From assembly GCF_007641235.1 (NCBI RefSeq), contig NZ_CP038157.1:1302001-1366000 (forward strand): a stretch of 64,000 nucleotides of DNA, in the 5' to 3' direction. This document shows positions 19,022 to 44,108 of the stretch, piece by piece. The stretch's first letter is position 1; each line of letters starts with the position of its first letter. Made by a program: the position numbers and the translations under genes. Origin of the DNA: Corynebacterium sanguinis (GTDB lineage Bacteria; Actinomycetota; Actinomycetes; Mycobacteriales; Mycobacteriaceae). The notes under the pieces are model-generated. The model did no database searches. It saw only the letters and a program-made list of their open reading frames with translations, and was not told the DNA's origin.

Positions 19022-19831
19022 TTAGAAGTCGAAACCGCCGAAATCGAAGCCGCCGTCGCCGCCGAAATCGCCACCGAAGAAGCCGCCGTCGCCGCCGGCG
19101 TCCCCGCCGAAATCGCCTCCGGCATCACCCGCGTCTGCGCCCGCATCACCGGCGTCGCCCATATCGGCGCCCGCATCGGCACCAGCGTCACCGGCTTCGA
19201 ACTCGGTCGCGGACGGAGTGCCGGCCATACCGGCGAACATGGCCGAGTAGAACATCATCGAGCTCGCGGCCCACATGCCCGTCATCATTGCGGGAGCCCA
19301 CCACGCGGACGAGTACCACCCGGCGGGCACAGGGCGACCCGCCACAGAACCACCGGGGTAATAGTGCGGGGTCTGCTCGGAGGCGGTGGGAGATGCAGTA
19401 ATCTCCGTGCCGTCTTCCTGGGTCACTGTGCGCTGCTCCGTGACGCGGCCCGCGCGGCGCTGACCTTCGAGCTCCGGCAGCGGCGGGCCAGGGGGCATGC
19501 CCATGATCTCACGGGCGGCGTTGACGTAGTGCAGACCCTCGAGGGCGGATTCGCGTGCCAGGTGTGCCTGCTTGACAGTGCGGGCGTCGGCAAGCGCGGC
19601 GGAAGCTGCGGTGAAACGCTCGGAGGCGTCCGCCATGGCCTGGGTGGATGCGGTGTCAGTGCCGGCTAGGTTAAGCACTTGGGAGCCGAGCCGGTCGGTC
19701 CAGCGCTTGGCGTCAGCGAGGGCGTCGTCAAGCTGCTCTTGCTCAAGCTGCTTGCGCGATCCACCACGCGCGCGAGTGCTGATCAGGTAGACGGCGCCGC
19801 CGACGACGGCGAGCAGGAGTAGCAGTTCCAC
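19022..19831 (-). CDS. Membrane-anchored protein with Asp/Gly-rich C-terminal tail
   Basis: 269 aa, GTG start at 19831 with AGAGAGG-like purines upstream. Residues 2-19 are one hydrophobic helix. A charged, partly helical stretch (about 25-125) follows, then a hydrophobic WWAPAMMTGMWAASSMMFYSAMFAGM segment read in parts as WWAPAMMTGM and MFYSAMFAGM. The last 55 residues are almost only Gly, Asp, Ala and Phe in short repeats (GDAG, GADAG, GGDFGGD). Similar tails occur in YgcG/TPM-type membrane proteins. Function is unknown. The tail is low-complexity and may vary in length between strains. Confidence 0.8.
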   Translation of the reverse strand: MELLLLLAVVGGAVYLISTRARGGSRKQLEQEQLDDALADAKRWTDRLGSQVLNLAGTDTASTQAMADASERFTAASAALADARTVKQAHLARESALEGLHYVNAAREIMGMPPGPPLPELEGQRRAGRVTEQRTVTQEDGTEITASPTASEQTPHYYPGGSVAGRPVPAGWYSSAWWAPAMMTGMWAASSMMFYSAMFAGMAGTPSATEFEAGDAGADAGADMGDAGDAGADAGDAGGDFGGDAGGDGGFFGGDFGGDGGFDFGGFDF

Positions 19832-34856: not shown

Positions 34857-36008
34857 ATGTCCGAATCTATTTACATCACTAACGCCAAGCGCACCCCTAT
34901 CGGTACGTTCGGCGGATCCCTGTCGAAGTTCCACACCACCGAGCTCGGTGCGTTTGCCGCCAAGGCCGTCATCGACGACTCCGGCGTGCCGGCGGATCAG
35001 TTCGATTCCGCCGTGTGGGCCAATGTGGTCACCTCCGCGCCGCGCGACCTGTTCACCTCGCGCTCCGTCGCACTTGAGGCTGGGCTTCCGCAGGGCTCGC
35101 ATGCCTACGGCGTCAACCGCCTCTGCGGCTCCGGCGTGCAGGCCGCGATCAGCGCGGCTCAGCAGATCCACAGCGACGATTCCCGTCTCACCCTCGTTGG
35201 TGGCGTCGAGGTCATGAGCCAGGCGCCCTACTCCGTCGAGGGCATGCGCCAGGGCCGCAAGATGGGCGACGGCAAGCTGGTTGACTGGCTGACCGGCGCC
35301 CTGACCGACCCGATGGGCAACGGCATCATGGGCATCACCGCGGAGAACGTCGCAGCGAAGTACGGCATCTCCCGCGAGCGCCAAGACGAGTTCGCTCTGC
35401 AGTCGCAGACCCGCGCCGCCGATGCCATCGCTAACGGGCGCTTCGAGGAGCAGATCATCCCCGTCGGCGATTTCACCACCGACGAGCACCCGCGCCAGAC
35501 GTCCGCAGAGAAGCTCGCTGGCCTGCGCCCGTCCTTTGCCAAGGAGGGCACGGTTACCCCGGGTAACTCCTCCGGCATCAACGACGCCGCCGCAGCGCTC
35601 GTGCTCACCGGCGAGTCCGGCCTGAAGGACTTCGGCCTGAACCCGCTGGCCAAGATCGTTTCCTGGGGCGTTGCTGGCTGCGACCCGAAGTACATGGGCC
35701 TGGGCCCGACCGTCGCCGTGCCGCGTGCGCTGGACAAGGCTGGCCTGAAGTTGTCCGACATCAAGCTCATCGAGTCGAACGAGGCGTTCGCCGCCCAGGC
35801 GATCGCGGTGTCCGACGAGCTCGGCTTCGACAACGACAAGACCAACATCAACGGCGGCGCCATCGCACTGGGCCACCCGATTGGTGCAACCGGCGTCATC
35901 CTGATCACCAAGCTCATCCACTCCCTGAAGGACGCCGGCGGCGGACTCGGCCTTGTCACCGCCTGCATCGGTGGCGGCCAGGGAATCGCTCTCATTCTGG
36001 AGGTTTAA
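34857..36008 (+). CDS. fadA: Acetyl-CoA C-acyltransferase (3-ketoacyl-CoA thiolase)
   Basis: 383 aa. Thiolase nucleophile C90 in NRLCGSGVQAA, then NEAFAAQA, GHPIGATG with the active-site His, and the second Cys in VTACIGGGQG. It cleaves 3-ketoacyl-CoA in the last beta-oxidation step. A biosynthetic acetoacetyl-CoA thiolase cannot be excluded from sequence alone, but the bifunctional beta-oxidation gene 6 nt downstream favours degradation. Confidence 0.92.
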   Translation: MSESIYITNAKRTPIGTFGGSLSKFHTTELGAFAAKAVIDDSGVPADQFDSAVWANVVTSAPRDLFTSRSVALEAGLPQGSHAYGVNRLCGSGVQAAISAAQQIHSDDSRLTLVGGVEVMSQAPYSVEGMRQGRKMGDGKLVDWLTGALTDPMGNGIMGITAENVAAKYGISRERQDEFALQSQTRAADAIANGRFEEQIIPVGDFTTDEHPRQTSAEKLAGLRPSFAKEGTVTPGNSSGINDAAAALVLTGESGLKDFGLNPLAKIVSWGVAGCDPKYMGLGPTVAVPRALDKAGLKLSDIKLIESNEAFAAQAIAVSDELGFDNDKTNINGGAIALGHPIGATGVILITKLIHSLKDAGGGLGLVTACIGGGQGIALILEV

Positions 36009-36014
36009 TCACAC

Positions 36015-38204
36015 ATGACACGCGAGTTGCAAAAGATTAAAACCGCAGCAGTCCTCGGCGCTGGCTCCATGGGTGCCGGCATCGCCGCGCTTCTTGCCAG
36101 CGGCGGCATTAAGGTCCACCTGCTGGACCTGCCCGCCGACGGTGAGGACCGCGACGAGCGCGCCCGCAAAGGAATTGAAACCCAGGTCAAGCGCCACGGT
36201 TTCACCCGCCCCGAGTACGCCGAGCGCGTCGTCCCGGGCAACACGGAGGATCACCTCGACCGCCTTGCTGAGGCCGAGTGGATCGTCGAGGCTGTCTTCG
36301 AGGACATCGACGTCAAGCGCGACACCTTTGCCAAGGTGGACAAGCACCGCACCCCGGGCACCCCGGTGACGTCGAACACCTCGACCATCCCGCTTGAGAC
36401 CCTGCTGGCGGAGTCCAGCGATGAGTTCAAGGGCGACTTCGCCATCACCCACTTCTTCAACCCGCCGCGCGTGATGCGCCTGGTTGAGCTGGTCCAGGGC
36501 CCCGACACCCGCCCGGAGATCGCCGACGCCCTGCGCCAGGTCCTCGAGCGTGACTTGGGCAAGGTCGTCGTCGACTGCCGCGACACCCCAGGCTTCATCG
36601 CCAACCGCATTGGTACTTTCTGGATGGGTGCCGGCGCGCAGGTCGCATTCGAGCAGGGCATCGCCCCGGAGCAGGCTGACACCGCCTTCGGCAAGCCCTT
36701 CGGTATCCCGCGCACCGGCGTGTTCGGCCTGTTCGACTACGTCGGCCTGCAGGTCGCTCCCCACATTTGGGGCACGCTGCTCAAGGCCCTGCCTGCCGAC
36801 GACGCGATGCAGGACTTCGGCGTAACCGACTCCCCGCAGTTCAAGGAGCTGCTGGAGAAGGGCTACACCGGCCGCACCGCTGAGTCCGGTTTCTACCGCG
36901 GCCGCGACGAGGTCTACGACTTCGAGGCGCACGACTACCGCCCGAAGAAGTCCTACGAGGTGCCCAAGAGCGCTCGCGAGCTCATGGAATCGGATACGCC
37001 CGAGGGCCACTACGCCCGCGAACTGTTCCGCCTGACCTTGAAGTACTGCTGCGACACAGCCGAGGAGATCGCCTCCACGGTTGAGCAGATCGACGTGACC
37101 ATGGAGCTCGGCTACGGCTGGAAGAAGGGCCCGTTCGCGCTTGCCGACTCCATCGGCCTCGACTACGTCGCGTCGCTGTACGACACGCCGCCGGCGCTGC
37201 TCGCCGCGGCACAGGCTGCCGGCGGGTTCTACGTCGACGGCCAGGTGCTGAGCACCAGCGGCGAGCTGACCCAGCGCGCCGACCGCGAGGGCGTCGTGCG
37301 CATCTCCGAACTCGTTGAGGGTGCGCAAGTCGTTGCCGAGAACGCGGGCGCGACGGTGTACAAGCTTGACGACGGCATCGGCGTGTTCGTGTACAAGACG
37401 CCGCTGAACTCCTCCACGGACGACGTCACCGAGCTGTTCACCAAGGCGGGCGAGTGGGACCTCAAGGCCCTCGTGATCGCCAACGACGAGGAGCGCGCGT
37501 TCTCCGCGGGCGCTAACCTGCCGCGCCTGGCCGAGATCTCCGGCCCCAACGGCGACCCGGAGGCTCGCAAGGCCACCATCCGCCAGGGCATCGACGGGTT
37601 GCACGCTTTGCGACGCGCCCCGTACCCCGTCGTCGGCGCTGTCCGCGGCGTCGCTCTCGGCGGCGGCATGGAGCTGCTGCTGCACACCGACGCCTCCGTC
37701 ATCCACGGCGAGACCCGCGTTGGCTTCCCGGAGCGCAACGTCGGCCTGTTCCCGGCATGGTCCGGCCCGGTCCGACTGCTTGAGCGCCTTCTGGAGCTCG
37801 GCGTTCCGAACGCGCACAAGGTCGCCTACGACGCGCTGCTCAACGTGCGCCCAGTGCCCGCGTTCAACGTCGACTTCTGGCGCAAGAACGACCGCGTAAT
37901 CATGAGCCCCGACCACGTTGTCGAGCAGGCGCTTGATCTCGCTCGCTCGCTTGTCGACGGCTACACCGCCCCCGCCGACGCGGAACTGCCCCTGACCTCG
38001 GAGACGCTCGAGTACACGGACGGCTCCGAGACCGACCGTGCGATCGGCGAGGCTCTGGCCTCGGTCTTCGCTGGTGAGGGCAAGGCCACCGAGGCGGAGC
38101 TGGCTGACCGCCAGGTTACGGCAGCATCGGACGTTCTCGCGCGACAGGAAAACGCTGATCGCGCTGAGCACATGGCGAAGACCCGCAAGCCGCTGAACAA
38201 CTAG
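36015..38204 (+). CDS. fadB: 3-hydroxyacyl-CoA dehydrogenase / enoyl-CoA hydratase (FadN-type order)
   Basis: 729 aa. The NAD-binding dehydrogenase comes first (AVLGAGSMGAGIAALLAS near residue 14; SNTSTIPLE; ITHFFNPPRVM with the catalytic His). Two dehydrogenase C-terminal segments follow, and the hydratase is last (about 430-620: ALGGGMELLLHTDA, FPERNVGLFPAWSG). This is the reverse of the E. coli FadB order and matches Bacillus FadN. It hydrates enoyl-CoA and oxidises the hydroxy product. It pairs with the thiolase upstream and ends at a strong terminator. Confidence 0.92.
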   Translation: MTRELQKIKTAAVLGAGSMGAGIAALLASGGIKVHLLDLPADGEDRDERARKGIETQVKRHGFTRPEYAERVVPGNTEDHLDRLAEAEWIVEAVFEDIDVKRDTFAKVDKHRTPGTPVTSNTSTIPLETLLAESSDEFKGDFAITHFFNPPRVMRLVELVQGPDTRPEIADALRQVLERDLGKVVVDCRDTPGFIANRIGTFWMGAGAQVAFEQGIAPEQADTAFGKPFGIPRTGVFGLFDYVGLQVAPHIWGTLLKALPADDAMQDFGVTDSPQFKELLEKGYTGRTAESGFYRGRDEVYDFEAHDYRPKKSYEVPKSARELMESDTPEGHYARELFRLTLKYCCDTAEEIASTVEQIDVTMELGYGWKKGPFALADSIGLDYVASLYDTPPALLAAAQAAGGFYVDGQVLSTSGELTQRADREGVVRISELVEGAQVVAENAGATVYKLDDGIGVFVYKTPLNSSTDDVTELFTKAGEWDLKALVIANDEERAFSAGANLPRLAEISGPNGDPEARKATIRQGIDGLHALRRAPYPVVGAVRGVALGGGMELLLHTDASVIHGETRVGFPERNVGLFPAWSGPVRLLERLLELGVPNAHKVAYDALLNVRPVPAFNVDFWRKNDRVIMSPDHVVEQALDLARSLVDGYTAPADAELPLTSETLEYTDGSETDRAIGEALASVFAGEGKATEAELADRQVTAASDVLARQENADRAEHMAKTRKPLNN

Positions 38205-38222
38205 CGCACGTGAGGTGCACTT

Positions 38223-38270
38223 AGCGCCCGCCCCCGGATCTGTTGTGCCGGGGGCGGGCGCTGTTATTTT
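38223..38270 (+). terminator. Strong intrinsic terminator after fadB
   Basis: A perfect 15-bp stem, AGCGCCCGCCCCCGG (38223-38237) with CCGGGGGCGGGCGCT (38248-38262), a 10-nt loop and a TGTTATTTT tail. Confidence 0.88.
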
Positions 38271-38280
38271 GTCTTGGGGT

Positions 38281-38460
38281 GAAGATGTCAGCGTGTTTTA
38301 GTGCGTGTGGTGCTCCAGTTTTGCGCTGAGATCTTCGGGGGGAAGAGCTCAGCGCACTGTTGATGCCTGCAGCGCCCCAAATTTAGGCTGAGATCTTCCC
38401 GGTGAAGATGTCAACGTATTTTTGATGCCTGCAACGCCCCAAACCCATGCTGACATCTTC
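38281..38460. repeat. Array A: three tandem palindromic intergenic units
   Basis: Units at 38281-38336, 38342-38397 and 38404-38460, period about 61 nt. Each opens with a form of GAAGATGTCAGCG and closes with a form of CGCTGAGATCTTC, which are near reverse complements. The centres of units 2 and 3 share GATGCCTGCARCGCCCCAAA. Unit 3 has GATGTC left and GACATC right, a paired change relative to its neighbours. The array lies between the convergent fadB and acyl-CoA dehydrogenase genes. Confidence 0.9.
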
Positions 38461-38836
38461 CAGCAAAAACCTACCGGTAAGCACTAACCCCGGTGATCGT
38501 CTTGCCAACGATCAGAGACTGGATCGTGTCGGTGCCTTCGTAGGTGTGCAGTGCTTCGATATCGGCGAAGTGCCTGATCACGTCGTTTTCGAGCAGGATG
38601 CCGACGCCGCCGAACATGTCGCGCGCGTTGGCGGCTACGCGTCGCGCACCACGCGTGTTGTGCACCTTCGCGAGCGCAGCTTGCTTTTCGTTAAGCGTGC
38701 CGGCTTCTTCGAGATCGAGCAGGCGCTTGCAGTACAGGGCCATGCCGGTGACATCCATGAGCATGTCTGCCAGGCGCTGCTGGATGATCTGGTTTTTGAT
38801 CAGCGGCCGGCCGAACTGGTGACGCTCGGAGGCGTA
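38360..38836. repeat. 477-bp direct repeat, copy 1
   Basis: Nearly identical to 41452-41928 (offset 3092); I see only two differences, both in the intergenic part near 38417. It spans half of palindromic array A and the last 366 nt of the dehydrogenase gene 38471-39655. Sequence identity drops sharply at both ends, as expected after gene conversion. Confidence 0.92.
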
Positions 38837-39655
38837 GTCGAGCGCTTTCTCATAGCAGTCAATCGCAAGCCCGAGCGCACTCCACGCCACGCCGAGGCGC
38901 GTGCCGGTGAGGATGCCCGCGGTGTCCCTAAACGAGTTCGCACCCGGCAGGCGCCGATCCTCGGAGACCCGAACGTCGTTGAGCTTGATGTGCGCCTGCG
39001 GCAGCCCACGGAAGGACGCCTTGCCCGTGATGGTTTCAGCGCTGTACCCGGGGGCGTCCTGGTCGACTATGAAGCCGCCGACCTCGCCGTCGTCCTTACG
39101 CGCCCAGACGATCGCGATGTGTCCGACGGAGCCGTGGCCGATCCACTTCTTTTCGCCGTTGATGACCCAGTCGTCGCCGTCGCGCGTGGCGGTGGTTTCC
39201 AGCGCCACAGAGTCGGAGCCGTGGTTGGGCTCCGTCAGCGCAAACGCGCCACGGATCTCCATACGAGACATGGGGCCGAGGTACTTCTTTTTCTGCTCCT
39301 CAGAGCCGAGGCTGTTGATCGACTGCATCGCCAGGCCCGCTTGGACGAGGGGAGCGGTGGCGGTGGAGGCGTCGCAACGCGAAAGCTCCATGGTGATCAA
39401 CCGGTTGGCGCGGATCGACATGGGGCGCTCGCCCTCGATGTCGATGCCGTCGCGCACGAGCCCGCGCCGTGCTGCCTCATCGATGGCGGGGATGTTGTAC
39501 TCGGCTTTCTCCCAAGCCTCGTTGACCTGCGGGTAAACCCACTGAGCGTAGTCGCGGGCTGCGCGCCACCACTCGAGGTCGTCGCCGTCGATGTCCGCGA
39601 AGACCTGGTAGTAGTCGGCGCGGGGGAGGATGAGTTCTTGGGGTGAGAGTGCCAC
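38471..39655 (-). CDS. Acyl-CoA dehydrogenase, paralog 1
   Basis: 394 aa from GTG at 39655, with AGAAGGA 6 nt upstream. FAD/acyl-CoA fold: ALTEPNHGSDSVALETTA, GEKKWIGHGSVG, QFGRPLIKNQIIQQRLADM, and the C-terminal LHTYEGTDTIQSLI with the likely catalytic Glu. It makes the first beta-oxidation step and passes electrons to EtfAB. Its closest relatives in view are the paralogs at 41563 and 42830, with which it shares most residues. It follows the acyl-CoA synthetase by 13 nt. Chain-length preference unknown; a glutaryl-CoA-type substrate is possible. Confidence 0.9.
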   Translation of the reverse strand: MALSPQELILPRADYYQVFADIDGDDLEWWRAARDYAQWVYPQVNEAWEKAEYNIPAIDEAARRGLVRDGIDIEGERPMSIRANRLITMELSRCDASTATAPLVQAGLAMQSINSLGSEEQKKKYLGPMSRMEIRGAFALTEPNHGSDSVALETTATRDGDDWVINGEKKWIGHGSVGHIAIVWARKDDGEVGGFIVDQDAPGYSAETITGKASFRGLPQAHIKLNDVRVSEDRRLPGANSFRDTAGILTGTRLGVAWSALGLAIDCYEKALDYASERHQFGRPLIKNQIIQQRLADMLMDVTGMALYCKRLLDLEEAGTLNEKQAALAKVHNTRGARRVAANARDMFGGVGILLENDVIRHFADIEALHTYEGTDTIQSLIVGKTITGVSAYR

Positions 39656-39668
39656 GTGGTTCCTTCTT

Positions 39669-41198
39669 CTAGTCGATTTCGCGCAGCGCACGGCGCAGGA
39701 TTTTGCCGGAGGGGTTCTTCGGGATCTCGTCGATGAAGTCGACGGCGCGCACCTTCTTGTAAGGGGTGACGCGCTCGGCGACCCAGTCCATGATTTCCTC
39801 GGCGGTCAGTTCCGCGTCCGCTTGCTTGACGACGAACGCGCGCGGGATTTCCAGCCCATCACGCTCAACGCCGACGACGCCGACGTCCTTGATGCCGGGG
39901 TGGGTCAGCAGCACGGCTTCGAGCTCGGCCGGGGCAACCTGGTAGCCCTTGTACTTGATCACTTCCTTGGCGCGGTCGACGATGATCAGGTCCATCTGCT
40001 CGTTGAAGTAGGCGATGTCTCCGGTGCGCAACCAGCCGCCGTCGATAAGCGTTTCGGCGTTTGCCTTGGGGTTGTTGATGTAGCCCTTCATCACCTGGGG
40101 GCCGCGGACGAGGACTTCGCCGCGCTCGGTGGGGGCGACGTCGGCAAGCGTGTCGGCGTCGACAAGGCGAAGCTCGGTGTTCGGAATCGGCATGCCGACG
40201 CTCGCACCCGCGCTGACCCCGTGCTTGCACGATGTCACGAGCGGCGAGGCCTCGGTCATGCCCCAGCCCTGAATGACGCGCGTGTCTAGGCGCTTTTCCA
40301 CCTCGCTGAGGGTCGCCTCGCTCAGCGGCGCGGCGCCGCACATGACGAGTTCGAGGGAGCTGAAGCCTTCAACGCGTATCGACGGCTCCTTGGCCAGCAT
40401 CACCGCCATCGGCGGGGCGATGAACGTCAGCTGGATACCGTGCTCCTCGTGCGCGCTGAGGAACTGCTGCTGGTCGAACTTCGGCATGGTGAACAGGTGC
40501 ATCCGGTCAAGCAGCGGGCCAAGCAGAATGATCGTGAACCCGTAGATGTGGGAGAACGGCAGCACAGCCAGGATCTTCACGCCGTGGGTGATGCCGTTTT
40601 CGGCGAGCATGAAGTTCGATTGCACGATGTTCGCGGCCAAGTTGCGGTGCGTGAGCATCACGCCCTTGGGAAAGCCCGTTGTGCCGGACGAGAAGGGCAG
40701 CGCGGCGAGGGACTCCGGATCGACGTCGACCTCGGGTGCTTCCTGCCCGCGTGCGACGACGTCTGCGAGCTCCATCGAGAAGATCTGCGGGATGGACTCC
40801 ATGTTCGTCGGGCCAATGAACAGGGAAGAGTTCGACGCCTCAATGATGTGCGCGACATCCGACTGGTTCATCAGCATCCCGACCGGGCTGACGCAGGCGC
40901 CTACCTTCGCCGCACCGAGCAGTGCGATTGCGAAGTTGATCGAGTTCGGGACCTGCAGTGTCACGGTGTCACCGACGCCGATGCCGCGGGCGTGCAGGTC
41001 GCCGGCGATGGCGTCGGAACGCTGCTTCAGCTCGCCGTAGGTGACGCTGGCGCCGGTGGTGACCTCGGTCATCGCAGGAAGGGCTGCGTCTTCCTCGCTC
41101 AGATCATCGAAGATGAGCGAGTAGATGTCCTTGTTGGGAATCTCGAGGTCGGGGAACGGGCTGCTGATAATGCCATCAGCGTATGTGGCTTGGGCCAT
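39669..41198 (-). CDS. Acyl-CoA synthetase (AMP-forming; 4-coumarate/long-chain fatty acid CoA ligase type)
   Basis: 509 aa. The ANL superfamily P-loop is SSGTTGFPKGVMLTHRN. QGWGMTEASPL (A5), GWLRTGDIAYF (A7), IVDRAKEVIKYKGYQV (A8) and the catalytic Lys in NPSGKILRRALRE (A10) follow. It activates a carboxylic acid, probably a fatty acid, as CoA thioester for the dehydrogenases. AGAGGAG lies 8 nt before the ATG. It is transcribed leftward together with dehydrogenase paralog 1 and lies downstream of palindromic array B. Confidence 0.92.
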   Translation of the reverse strand: MAQATYADGIISSPFPDLEIPNKDIYSLIFDDLSEEDAALPAMTEVTTGASVTYGELKQRSDAIAGDLHARGIGVGDTVTLQVPNSINFAIALLGAAKVGACVSPVGMLMNQSDVAHIIEASNSSLFIGPTNMESIPQIFSMELADVVARGQEAPEVDVDPESLAALPFSSGTTGFPKGVMLTHRNLAANIVQSNFMLAENGITHGVKILAVLPFSHIYGFTIILLGPLLDRMHLFTMPKFDQQQFLSAHEEHGIQLTFIAPPMAVMLAKEPSIRVEGFSSLELVMCGAAPLSEATLSEVEKRLDTRVIQGWGMTEASPLVTSCKHGVSAGASVGMPIPNTELRLVDADTLADVAPTERGEVLVRGPQVMKGYINNPKANAETLIDGGWLRTGDIAYFNEQMDLIIVDRAKEVIKYKGYQVAPAELEAVLLTHPGIKDVGVVGVERDGLEIPRAFVVKQADAELTAEEIMDWVAERVTPYKKVRAVDFIDEIPKNPSGKILRRALREID

Positions 41199-41371
41199 AA
41201 TGGGCTCCTCTGTGTGACGGGTAACGCACCAGTTGTTAGTTCTATCAGAGAAACTGCTCGTGCGTAGCCTGTTGGCCTGAAAAAATCAGGTGAAGGAGCT
41301 TGGGTGTGGGGGAGATGCCTGGGCGTTTTTCTGTTTGTGATGCGCCGGGTTTGTGTTGGGGTCTTTTTAAG

Positions 41372-41552
41372 GAAGAGCTCAGGGCGTTTTTGATGCCGGA
41401 AACGTCCCGAATTCACGCTGAGATCTTCGAGTCGAAGATATCAGCGCATTTTTGATGCCTGCAGCGCCCCAAATTTAGGCTGAGATCTTCCCGGTGAAGA
41501 TGTCAACGCTTTTTTGATGCCTGCAACGCCCCAAACCCATGCTGACATCTTC
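41372..41552. repeat. Array B: three tandem palindromic intergenic units
   Basis: Units at 41372-41428, 41434-41490 and 41496-41552, each 57 nt with 5-nt spacers. The arms are variants of GAAGATNTCAGCG and its complement; all three centres share TTTTTGATGCC. Units 2 and 3 match units 2 and 3 of array A nearly base for base except for the left end of unit 2; unit 1 has diverged. It fills the region between dehydrogenase paralog 2 and the acyl-CoA synthetase promoter. The rest of 41199-41371 holds that promoter region and nothing else I recognise. Confidence 0.9.
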
Positions 41553-41928
41553 CAGCAAAAACCTACCGGTAAGCACTAACCCCGGTGATCGTCTTGCCAA
41601 CGATCAGAGACTGGATCGTGTCGGTGCCTTCGTAGGTGTGCAGTGCTTCGATATCGGCGAAGTGCCTGATCACGTCGTTTTCGAGCAGGATGCCGACGCC
41701 GCCGAACATGTCGCGCGCGTTGGCGGCTACGCGTCGCGCACCACGCGTGTTGTGCACCTTCGCGAGCGCAGCTTGCTTTTCGTTAAGCGTGCCGGCTTCT
41801 TCGAGATCGAGCAGGCGCTTGCAGTACAGGGCCATGCCGGTGACATCCATGAGCATGTCTGCCAGGCGCTGCTGGATGATCTGGTTTTTGATCAGCGGCC
41901 GGCCGAACTGGTGACGCTCGGAGGCGTA
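41452..41928. repeat. 477-bp direct repeat, copy 2
   Basis: Partner of 38360-38836. It covers the 3' 366 nt of dehydrogenase paralog 2, its stop codon and two palindromic units. Identical stops, spacers and silent sites show the copy is recent. Confidence 0.92.
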
Positions 41929-42753
41929 CTTTAACGCCTTCTCGTAGCAGTCGATCGCCATGCCAAGGGCGCTCCAGGCCACGCCCAAACGCGTTCCACC
42001 CAGCACCGCGGCGGTGTCGCGGAACGTGCGGGCGCCGGGGAGGCGGCGGTCGTCGGGCACGCGGACGTCGTTAAGCGTGATGTGTGCCTGGGGGATTCCG
42101 CGCAGCGACGCCTTGCCCTCGATCGTTTTTGCGTGGTAGCCGGGGGCGTCCTGGTCGACTATGAAGCCGCCGACCTCGCCGTCGTCCTTACGCGCCCAGA
42201 CGATCGCGATGTGTCCGACGGAGCCGTGGCCGATCCACTTCTTTTCGCCGTTGATGACCCAGTCGTCGCCGTCGCGCTTCGCAGTCGTCTCCAGAGCCAC
42301 AGAGTCGGAGCCGTGATCCGGCTCAGTCAACGCGAACGCGCCGCGGATCTCCATGCGCGCCATCGGGCCGAGGTACTTCTTCTTCTGCTCCTCAGAGCCG
42401 AGGCTGTTGATCGACTGCATCGCCAGGCCAGCCTGGACGATCACTGCCGTCGCCGTCGACGCGTCACACCGGGCCAGCTCCAACGCCACGAGGCGGTTCG
42501 CGCGGATCGACATGGGGCGCTCGCCCTCGATGTCAATGCCGTCGCGGATCAGACCGCGTCGCGCCGCCTCCTCGATGGCGGGGATGTTGTACTCGGCTTT
42601 CTCCCAAGCCTCGTTGACCTGCGGGTAAACCCACTGCGCGTAGTCGCGGGCTGCGCGCCACCACTCGAGGTCGTCGCCGTCGACGTCGGCGAATACCTGG
42701 TAGTAGTCGGCGCGGGCGTCGAGAAGATGGTGCTTAGCTGCGGATTCAGTCAT
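41563..42753 (-). CDS. Acyl-CoA dehydrogenase, paralog 2
   Basis: 396 aa. Same motif set as paralog 1: ALTEPDHGSDSVALETTA, GEKKWIGHGSVG, QFGRPLIKNQIIQQRL, and LHTYEGTDTIQSLI with the likely catalytic Glu. The last 122 residues are identical to paralog 1, while the middle (residues about 190-270) differs in many codons. AAAGG lies before the ATG. It follows paralog 3 on the minus strand after 76 nt. Electrons are expected to go to EtfAB. Confidence 0.9.
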   Translation of the reverse strand: MTESAAKHHLLDARADYYQVFADVDGDDLEWWRAARDYAQWVYPQVNEAWEKAEYNIPAIEEAARRGLIRDGIDIEGERPMSIRANRLVALELARCDASTATAVIVQAGLAMQSINSLGSEEQKKKYLGPMARMEIRGAFALTEPDHGSDSVALETTAKRDGDDWVINGEKKWIGHGSVGHIAIVWARKDDGEVGGFIVDQDAPGYHAKTIEGKASLRGIPQAHITLNDVRVPDDRRLPGARTFRDTAAVLGGTRLGVAWSALGMAIDCYEKALKYASERHQFGRPLIKNQIIQQRLADMLMDVTGMALYCKRLLDLEEAGTLNEKQAALAKVHNTRGARRVAANARDMFGGVGILLENDVIRHFADIEALHTYEGTDTIQSLIVGKTITGVSAYR

Positions 42754-42829
42754 GTCTTTTTACCTTTCGTGTGGAAAAGCCCCAACGGATCGATGTCCAT
42801 TGGGGCTGTCGTTGAAGCGTCAGGCGGGG

Positions 42830-44035
42830 TTAGCTGGTGAACGCGCCGACGCCGGTGATGGACTTGCCCACGATAAGCGACTGCATGGTGTCCGTGCCCT
42901 CGTAGGTGTGCAGGGTCTCAATGTCGGTGAAGTGGCGGATCACGTCGTTTTCGAGCAGGATGCCCACGCCGCCGAACATGTCGCGCGCGTTGGCGGCAAC
43001 GCGGCGAGCGGCGCGCGTGTTGTGCACCTTGGCCAGGGCGGCCTGCTGCTCGGTGACCTCGCCGGACTCCTCCAGCTCAAGCAGGCGCTTGCAGTACAGA
43101 GCCATGCCGGTGACATCCATCAGCATGTCAGCGAGGCGCTGCTGGATGATCTGGTTCTTGATCAGCGGGCGGCCGAACTGGTGGCGCTCGGAGGCGTACT
43201 TCAGGGCCTTCTCGTAGCAGTCGATGGCCAGGCCGAGGGCGCTCCAGGCCACGCCGATGCGGGTGCTCATGAGCACCTGTGCGGTGTCGCGGAAGGACTT
43301 GCAGCCCGGCAGGCGGCGGTCGTCGGAAACGCGCACGTTGTTGAGCTTGATCTCAGCCTGGGGGATACCGCGCAGGGAACCCTTGCCGGTGATCGTGGTG
43401 GCCTCGTAGCCCTCCTGGTCCTGGTCGACGATGAAGGCGCCGACCTTGCCGTCTTCCATGCGGGCGTAGACCACGGTGATGTGGCCGACGGAGCCGTGGC
43501 CGATCCACTTCTTCTCGCCGTTGATGACCCAGTCGTCACCGTCGCGGACGGCGGTGGTCTCCAGGGCGATGGAGTCGGAGCCGTGATCCGGCTCGGTCAG
43601 GGCGAACGCGCCGCGGATCTCCATGCGCGACATCGGGCCGAGGTACTTGGCCTTCTGCTCGTCGGTGCCGAACGAGTTGATTGACTGCATGGCCAGACCA
43701 GCCTGGACACCGAATGCGGTGGCGGTGGAGGCGTCGAGACGCGAGGCCTCCATGCCGATTATGCGCTTTGCGCGGATGCTCATCGCGGGCTGGCCCTCGA
43801 TGTCGATGCCGTCGCGGATCAGGCCGCGACGTGCTGCTTCCTCAGCGCCGGGGATGTTGTACTCGGCCTTCTCCCACGCGTCGTTGACGAAGGGGCGGGC
43901 GAACTCGCAGAAGTCGCGAGCCTTCTTCCACCATTCGAGGTCCTCGCCCTCGATGTCCTCGAAGACGCGGTAGTAGTCGGTGCGGGGGTCGAGCGGGATG
44001 CCTTGGAACGGCTTGAACTCGGTGGTGTCTGACAC
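42830..44035 (-). CDS. Acyl-CoA dehydrogenase, paralog 3
   Basis: 401 aa from GTG at 44035, preferred because GGAGG lies 8 nt upstream and paralog homology begins soon after; an ATG at 44080 would add 15 unconserved residues. It carries ALTEPDHGSDSIALETTA, GEKKWIGHGSVGH and YEGTDTMQSLIVGK. It is the most divergent of the three and has no palindromic array or conversion tract at its 3' end. It is the first gene of the leftward dehydrogenase series, with a perfect 10-bp palindrome in its promoter region. Confidence 0.9.
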   Translation of the reverse strand: MSDTTEFKPFQGIPLDPRTDYYRVFEDIEGEDLEWWKKARDFCEFARPFVNDAWEKAEYNIPGAEEAARRGLIRDGIDIEGQPAMSIRAKRIIGMEASRLDASTATAFGVQAGLAMQSINSFGTDEQKAKYLGPMSRMEIRGAFALTEPDHGSDSIALETTAVRDGDDWVINGEKKWIGHGSVGHITVVYARMEDGKVGAFIVDQDQEGYEATTITGKGSLRGIPQAEIKLNNVRVSDDRRLPGCKSFRDTAQVLMSTRIGVAWSALGLAIDCYEKALKYASERHQFGRPLIKNQIIQQRLADMLMDVTGMALYCKRLLELEESGEVTEQQAALAKVHNTRAARRVAANARDMFGGVGILLENDVIRHFTDIETLHTYEGTDTMQSLIVGKSITGVGAFTS

Positions 44036-44078
44036 TGGAACAACCTCCATTGTGTTGTCTAAATCGGAACTACTGCTC

Positions 44079-44108
44079 ATTGTGACTCATGTCGCAATGT
44101 TGCGCAAC
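44079..44108 (-). promoter_or_regulatory. Promoter and palindromic operator of the dehydrogenase series
   Basis: On the minus strand a CACAAT -10 (44084-44079) is preceded by the perfect palindrome GTTGCGCAAC (44099-44108), centred about 30 nt upstream of the predicted start, where it would cover the -35 region. This is a usual place for a repressor site. Which regulator binds is unknown. Confidence 0.42.

Follow-up and report, generated by a model that had tools for sequence, protein, structure and literature searches.

A 57-base intergenic repeat of six Corynebacterium genomes as a candidate DNA-architectural site

Two arrays of the repeat beside acyl-CoA dehydrogenase genes

A short repeat with inverted arms is present in a 64-kb stretch of the 2.36-Mb chromosome of Corynebacterium sanguinis (genome G000, positions 1302001-1366000; this whole stretch is referred to as the window, and coordinates of its features are counted from its first base). 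The window contains six units of 56 to 57 nucleotides (nt) in two arrays of three with a start-to-start period of 61 to 62 nt, as the first-pass annotation of this DNA had described, and the pattern GAAGANNTCA-N34..39-TGANNTCTTC gave six matches in the window and none in 100 dinucleotide shuffles. Read on the plus strand, array 1 consists of W1 (38281-38336, 56 nt, with arms at 38281-38293 and 38324-38336), W2 (38342-38398, 57 nt) and W3 (38404-38460, 57 nt), and array 2 consists of W4 (41372-41428), W5 (41434-41490) and W6 (41496-41552), each of 57 nt. Array 1 sits between a fadB-like gene on the plus strand (36015-38204), with 3-hydroxyacyl-CoA dehydrogenase and enoyl-CoA hydratase domains, and a convergent acyl-CoA dehydrogenase gene on the minus strand (38471-39691), which ends at the array with its stop codon 10 nt from W3. 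A paralogous acyl-CoA dehydrogenase gene (41563-42753, minus strand) ends at array 2, its stop codon being likewise 10 nt from W6, and an AMP-binding (acyl-CoA ligase-like) gene (39669-41198, minus strand) lies downstream of this array. An ordinary terminator-like hairpin of the fadB-like gene (38224-38270, plus strand) is separate from and outside array 1; a program listing gave a stem at 38245-38261 with the tail TGTTATTTTG, and a longer stem, 38224-38261, was seen by eye.

Comparison of the two arrays detected a near-identical tract at 38340-38820, with a counterpart at ~41432-41912, that comprises units and the 3' part of the dehydrogenase paralogues. In 60-nt steps, the identity was 0.90, 0.97 and then 1.00 up to 38820; past this point the paralogues were 0.65 to 0.88 identical, with further blocks of 0.95 to 1.00 inside the genes. 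W5 is a near-copy of W2 and W6 of W3 (90 to 97% identity), and the adjoining ~360 bp, made up of the 10-bp gap and the 3' ends of the dehydrogenase genes, were 100% identical. These alignments suggest that the arrays are linked by a gene-conversion-like copy, which could have run in either direction, and that the first two dehydrogenase paralogues are a mosaic, as from repeated gene conversion. Since two units were duplicated between the arrays, their shared center and arm change are not independent observations. The first-pass counts of GATGCC in five of the six units and of TGCARCGCCCCAAA in four were right, but these four are the W2/W5 and W3/W6 pairs, duplicated once. The paired arm change of GATGTC with GACATC is also present, but as one event, in W3 and its duplicate W6. 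Inverted arms of 13 nt are real, but the consensus as first written is too strict, as W2 and W4 carry the variant GAAGAGCTC, followed in W4 by AGGG.

The window has three acyl-CoA dehydrogenase paralogues (38471-39691, 41563-42753 and 42830-44080), two of them adjacent and one past the AMP-binding gene. Ahead of W4, positions 41305-41371 fall in a 187-nt stretch that is 74% like array 1 and may represent a decayed fourth unit.

Distribution of the unit among Corynebacterium genomes

A first covariance model was based on 12 units, six of which came from the rpoC-rpsL gap and were located by pattern. This model detected seven units that lie between an M23 peptidase gene and rpsB, 287 bp from the start of the latter; in the window genome it also detected two units at position 1109770 and one weak unit each at 2289329 and 2256246, the second of which was cut to 59 nt. 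Weak single matches at 877910 and 1199230 were left out of the counts. Arrays in the window genome had 2 to 7 units, with neighboring starts 61 to 62 bp apart. A second model, of 32 units and with a threshold of E 0.001, matched 6 of 242 Corynebacterium genomes, so that the search across the genus proposed in the first-pass annotation identified a real family extending beyond the window. Among 397 genomes of the order, this model matched two of the same six carriers only and no genus besides Corynebacterium. The model searches across more than 40 genomes used strict filters, and a shared unit of genome G058 (1427 kb) was absent from their lists. An exact-pattern scan of an 84,980-species collection, which may leave out the window's own or very near genomes, matched only C. 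lipophiloflavum DSM 44291 (G020) and C. senegalense (G095), and there were no matches to one exact pattern in viral contigs. When C-terminal FadB sequences of 12 genomes, including that of the window, were compared, the five other carriers were the five closest to the window (88 to 93% identity, with the next at 76%). The carriers would fit one clade on this measure, which is an identity and not a tree.

In the relatives, most sites were single units of 57 bp with arms GAAGACCTCAGCG and its complement, 44 nt from start to start, and 1 to 23 units were counted per carrier. At the fadB place, C. lipophiloflavum had a junction form only (right arm-5 nt-left arm), and no unit was present in the stretches inspected in the four other carriers. 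One orthologous place differed in tandem copy number, with 2.5 units in genome G041 and 1.5 in G058. Two observations concern the possible origins of particular copies. A terminator-like hairpin at rpoC of the window genome (AAAGACCCCAGCG...CGCTGGGGTCTTT, G000:C1 ~503585-503650, minus strand) has 58 nt and arms near those of the unit; it possibly arose from a unit that became a terminator, and it was excluded from every unit count. Beside one single unit, ~1.2 kb were 96% identical between G000 and G041, above other flank matches between these genomes, perhaps through recent transfer carrying a unit.

Several known kinds of repeat were tried and rejected. The site families attC, loxP/FRT-like and resolvase were considered for the 13-5-13 array junction because C. 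lipophiloflavum has only this arrangement at the fadB site, but most units are single 13-31-13 structures without a junction. For a CRISPR array, the centers of the rpoC array include two look-alike pairs (by eye) and the arms vary; no cas search was made. DNA-uptake-type repeats were rejected because there were too few exact arms, 14 in the window genome and 4 to 27 in the five others. An Rfam scan of 36000-43000 gave nothing above the cut-off, its one match (E 3) lying below the gathering score, and literature searches of open-licence full texts found no matching report, in agreement with the earlier statement that no named family with this unit is known. The C. diphtheriae families Cod-1, -2, -3 and -5, listed in PMC2267715, are known here by name only; no match to the second model at E 0.001 occurred in Corynebacterium outside the six carriers. 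The main text of a 2025 survey of repetitive extragenic palindromic (REP) sequences (PMC12306157) contains no word starting with Corynebacter.

Arms, center and length of the unit

The inverted 13-bp arms (GAAGANNTCAGCG), with which the consensus of 32 aligned units agrees in starting GAAGACCTCAGCG, had a mean pairwise identity of 0.90 in 30 units of the relatives, compared to 0.40 for the center. In the comparison of four orthologous places between species, arms agreed at 24 to 25 of 26 positions and centers at 14 to 15 of 31; a fifth pair, from the close genomes G020 and G000, agreed at 24 of 26 and 26 of 31, respectively. These comparisons indicate that the arms have been held at each place after species divergence. 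In 34 units of the relatives there were 36 arm departures, of which 1 was compensated, 5 gave G-U pairs and 30 were mismatches. Column 7 alone accounted for 11 departures (ten mismatches), several of them in tandem neighbors, where departures are not independent. The 12 units first aligned showed no more covariation than their shuffles did, and in 8 of them columns 7 and 51 did not pair; in 32 aligned units, pair counts, inner pairing included, were again no higher than in shuffles. As the arms were conserved and their changes uncompensated, the sequence appears to have been kept as for protein contact and not as a stem. The earlier suggestion that the fold is selected was not borne out by these counts, nor by the blocks of the center, where outer A/T blocks paired below chance and G+C blocks only marginally above it. 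Among units with unusual limits, the G058 unit at 1427 kb (58 nt) entered only the arm-departure and the bend and length counts; the G041 unit at 1971333, cut out of register, was excluded from the block-pairing, arm-departure and bend counts and included in the column (30) and fold (34) counts and among the units of 57 nt.

Base identity was otherwise unconserved in the 31-bp center, but its division into A/T (W) and G/C (S) blocks followed a W4-S7-W5-S7-W4 layout across the family. In 30 units, the A/T fraction was 0.73 to 0.93 at columns 16-19, 0.60 to 0.93 at columns 27-31 and 0.90 to 1.00 at columns 39-42, and 0.03 to 0.33 at columns 14-15, 20-26, 32-38 and 43-44, with an A/T autocorrelation peak at 11-12. 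Either A or T occurred in the A/T blocks, and the mean identity of the centers equaled that against the reverse complement. A-tracts on either strand bend DNA in the same way, for which reason A and T would be interchangeable in the center. With three models, whose parameters were not taken directly from a source, the predicted bend of the center was 47, 44 and 38 degrees in 34 units, compared to 25, 16 and 16 degrees in composition shuffles. For 420 random 31-mers from two carrier genomes, mostly coding, one model gave 22.3 degrees, compared to 21.7 in shuffles. Unit length (n = 58) was 57 nt in 49 cases, 58 in five, 56 in three and 59 in one and appears nearly fixed across the aligned units although the base identity of the center has been lost. 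The conserved center from which the first-pass annotation argued for more than a simple terminator is local to the window and inherited by duplication; what extends to the whole family is the layout and the length.

An RNA reading, on which the unit is a bidirectional terminator or a 3'-end hairpin protecting mRNA, supposes that the arms pair with each other whichever strand is transcribed and so stop or protect both transcripts. Twenty isolated units of the relatives fold at -21.5 to -43.6 kcal/mol, as such a reading would have it. Its stem is not one that base pairing has maintained, however, with 1 of 36 arm changes compensated and no covariation. Furthermore, in the block-pairing analysis, limited to the 29 of 34 units of exactly 57 nt, the outer A/T blocks were complementary less often than when redealt among units (0.345 versus 0.446; p 0.04). 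The strand sense of the A/T blocks was correlated between left and middle (0.60; p 0.0004), left and right (0.42; p 0.01) and middle and right (0.27; p 0.08). This correlation and the avoidance of pairing by the outer blocks are the opposite of a hairpin. Folding of the window genome's centers was no better than in dinucleotide shuffles (p 0.37). An extended RNA or cruciform hairpin was also tried: its inner stem was convincing in single folds, but pair counts equaled those of shuffles, and the block pairing, marginal for the inner G+C blocks and below chance for the outer ones, disfavored it further.

The same features bear on a neutral minisatellite, in which slippage or unequal exchange increases the number of units and all else is ancestry. 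Arrays with a 62-bp period, a copy-number difference between species and the gene-conversion-like copying between the window arrays speak for it. However, arms, A/T layout and length are retained by single units of the relatives, both at unlinked places and at orthologous ones, although the base identity of the center is lost. MIRU minisatellites of mycobacteria are tandem units of 50 to 100 bp in gaps between genes of an actinobacterium, a likeness to the tandem intergenic Corynebacterium arrays by description only. The reading as a neutral minisatellite was already disfavored, and we regard it as very improbable.

Placement at gene ends and possible roles

The surroundings of the units were examined with a crude caller of open reading frames that ignores RNA genes and genes of less than 60 amino acids. 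None of 39 single units or arrays was inside an open reading frame; 23 were in convergent, 13 in co-directional and 3 in divergent gaps. This count includes G095 594684 (~67 nt) and the C. lipophiloflavum junction, both excluded from unit counts. By eye, two of the neighbors in gaps called convergent (G041 1570548 and 1758317) resemble tRNA genes; one site called divergent, G095 1842736, really follows rpmJ, the remaining divergent gaps being G000 1672146 and G058 1359469. When orthologous sites were collapsed by hand (nine groups), 30 places remained, 15 convergent, 12 co-directional and 3 divergent. A common regulon was rejected, as neighboring genes look unrelated by eye; family searches covered five window genes and three array neighbors.

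Placement also bears on the terminator or hairpin reading. Of the 23 convergent sites, 11 (7 of the 15 places after collapsing) have both stop codons no more than 33 nt from the unit, which leaves little space for another terminator. Many sites have orthologous gaps without the unit, and in some of these another hairpin takes its place: after rpoC, G058 has the unit alone, G041 an ordinary terminator with a U-tract and C. lipophiloflavum a hairpin without one, and the unit at G041 1967764 is replaced in the G058 orthologue by a hairpin followed by TTTTT (by eye). However, only 3 of 44 outward flanks had four or more T residues among the 8 bases next to the arm, so that the U-tract expected after the stem of an intrinsic (Rho-independent) terminator was generally absent, and the arm's own 3' end reads UCUUC. 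Units also stand beside ordinary terminators, at fadB in the window and at rpmJ in C. senegalense (by eye), and 2 of the 39 sites are in divergent gaps. A strict terminator script reported a U-tract terminator in just 1 of 18 stretches; as it overlooked one plain by eye, that of the G058 orthologue of G041 1967764, its negatives were not used as evidence. Of 320 clear transcript ends in C. glutamicum, 72% fell within the first half of the stem and only 1.9% in the T-tail, and the authors of that study even consider a DNA cruciform, in the part of the report that treats these ends (PMC3890552). As ends are rarely in T-tails in that species, the lack of a U-tract is perhaps a lesser objection within Corynebacterium, which keeps the reading alive; on balance we consider it rather unlikely.

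Placement and variable presence would also be explained by a dispersed element like a REP/REPIN or a miniature inverted-repeat transposable element (MITE), the arms being the ends recognized by a transposase-like enzyme and copies being purged from genes and promoters, so that they remain at gene ends and need no cellular function. The unit is interspersed and of low copy number, its presence varies at the same place (for example, G041 1570548 compared to almost abutting genes in G058), and tandem number differs at an orthologous place. REP families, as described in PMC3733652, likewise favor co-directional and convergent gaps, to which 36 of the 39 sites belong. Against this, the RAYT (Y1 transposase) gene (PF01797) that accompanies REPs of the GTAG type was not found in 17 of 17 genomes, including the six carriers, in a search whose control was positive in 5 of 14 known genomes, and a RAYT-driven REP was rejected on this basis. 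The terminal GTAG or CGTC tag by a short stem-loop that defines REP/REPINs in the same description was absent from the consensus start. No target duplication of at least 3 bp was present at 22 of 22 single units (no identical flanking 3- to 10-mers), although old ones could have decayed. Exact-arm matches outside units were solitary or had a diverged partner at unit distance, and no insertion sequence with these ends was noticed among the exact arms of the six genomes; in G041, whole units stand 3.6 to 4.4 kb apart with flanks matching the G058 chromosome on both sides. A recent copy would conserve the center together with the arms, yet centers are 0.40 identical, and arms are held at orthologous sites. 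We consider such an element unlikely.

The unit is best read as REP/BIME-like but not as a member. The REP/BIME elements of enterobacteria and the GTAG/CGTC REP families resemble it as short palindromic intergenic repeats, single or clustered, mostly in convergent or co-directional gaps and often near stop codons (PMC3733652). In contrast, the Corynebacterium arms are unrelated to GTAG/CGTC-tagged stems and are not maintained by pairing; there is a 31-bp linker with a predicted bend in place of a short loop and a nearly fixed length of 57 bp, and the 1 to 23 units per carrier reach at most the small end of REP families. The nearest known kind, to judge from the section of PMC5217627 that describes them, are spaced palindromic pairs such as GAATCCAT(N)23ATGGATTC of Bradyrhizobium japonicum and CCTAC(N)19TAGGT of Desulfatibacillum, to which no function was assigned. 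These pairs also have two inverted blocks at a constant distance and are intergenic, near 3' ends or in convergent gaps; they differ in sequence, spacer length and phylum, and that section mentions no A/T layout or bend of the spacer. Of the classes offered in the first-pass annotation, a REP- or MITE-like element or multiple sites for one protein held in kind, in that the unit is interspersed and intergenic with arms conserved in sequence; that interpretation was thus supported in part, for the kind of element and not for a selected fold.

Further repeats were observed. A second repeat with GACCGTGACATT- and CAAAACCCCAG-like blocks, unlike the unit by eye, occurs in G058 and C. lipophiloflavum. 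C. senegalense has ~20-bp tandem copies built on the right arm end (cgtgaggtcttcccgcgggggcgtgaggtcttc) beside a unit and, elsewhere, a unit followed by a duplication of the neighboring ~120 to 150 bp with a second, truncated unit. In the window, G+C-rich positions 19035-19177 hold overlapping short tandem repeats with units of 12 to 33 bp, perhaps from a repetitive protein.

The reading that we favor tentatively, and to which we give a little less than an even chance, is that the 57-base repeat is a DNA-architectural site, predicted to be pre-bent, for a putative protein, rather than an RNA hairpin. Two inverted 13-bp half-sites, 44 bp apart from center to center, would be joined by the 31-bp linker, whose three A/T tracts, ~11.5 bp apart, would pre-bend the helix. 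One protein, a dimer or higher oligomer, would bind the two arms together and loop or wrap the linker, and the complex would form a compact barrier or topological landing place, often between convergent genes, that stops or insulates transcription or absorbs supercoils; the window genome has its units amplified, in arrays of 2 to 7. A protein that grips the arms and wraps or bends the DNA between them would suit the strict inverted sites, the linker of near-exact length with its predicted bend, and the 62-bp lattice. The position at gene ends, in many cases between convergent genes, points to a role as a barrier, as an insulator or in topology. Across the six species to which the repeat was restricted, comparison indicates arms kept in sequence, a nearly fixed length, the weak/strong layout, the 62-bp period and a position outside open reading frames, mostly at gene ends; the bend of the linker is predicted, and binding by a protein and action of the complex at gene ends are what these features lead us to infer.

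Several observations weigh against this explanation. The binding protein is putative, and the bend is computed. The window genome's units bend less, 28.2 compared to 24.6 degrees in one model (p 0.09), with two other models giving 32 versus 17 and 28 versus 16 degrees, both significant, and their middle W block is just 0.42 to 0.63 A/T. The inner G+C blocks pair slightly above chance (0.414 versus 0.364; p 0.06; 29 units), and inner folds of the relatives beat dinucleotide shuffles (mean z about -1, combined p 6e-6, 34 units), although such shuffles break the block layout, which alone sets G+C opposite G+C. In addition, the G058 partners of G041 1570548 and 1619341 are without a unit or anything like it.

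The E. coli gyrase motif offers a parallel to the proposed architectural site. It is degenerate and ~130 bp long, with a period of 10.75 in two flanks around a cleavage block, and its periodic A/T-G/C layout, like that of the unit, is read as DNA wrapped with A/T minor grooves toward the protein; BIMEs are bound by gyrase, whose sites are over-represented in BIME-2, according to the corresponding parts of PMC6379681. The Corynebacterium unit differs in having three tracts ~11.5 bp apart between two strict 13-bp sites and in being confined to six species. Gyrase is not claimed as the binder, because its motif is degenerate and the unit is strict and present in six species only. A more specific and quite unlikely version is a clade-specific boundary element, in which the putative protein clamps the pre-bent two-armed site and blocks or insulates transcription arriving from either side. 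It would do so between convergent genes with neither an RNA hairpin nor a U-tract, as a bacterial counterpart of roadblock terminators, and the two largest arrays would be amplified copies in the gaps ahead of rpsL and rpsB.

Palindromic repeats between genes are commonly interpreted as RNA hairpins or as remnants of transposition. Here these interpretations can be told apart by comparing species: the sequence of the arms and the length have been kept, and of the linker only a layout for which a bend is predicted. For the class of 3'-end palindromes that is found in several phyla and has no assigned function in the section describing it (PMC5217627), a bend and a protein binding the arms would be predicted.

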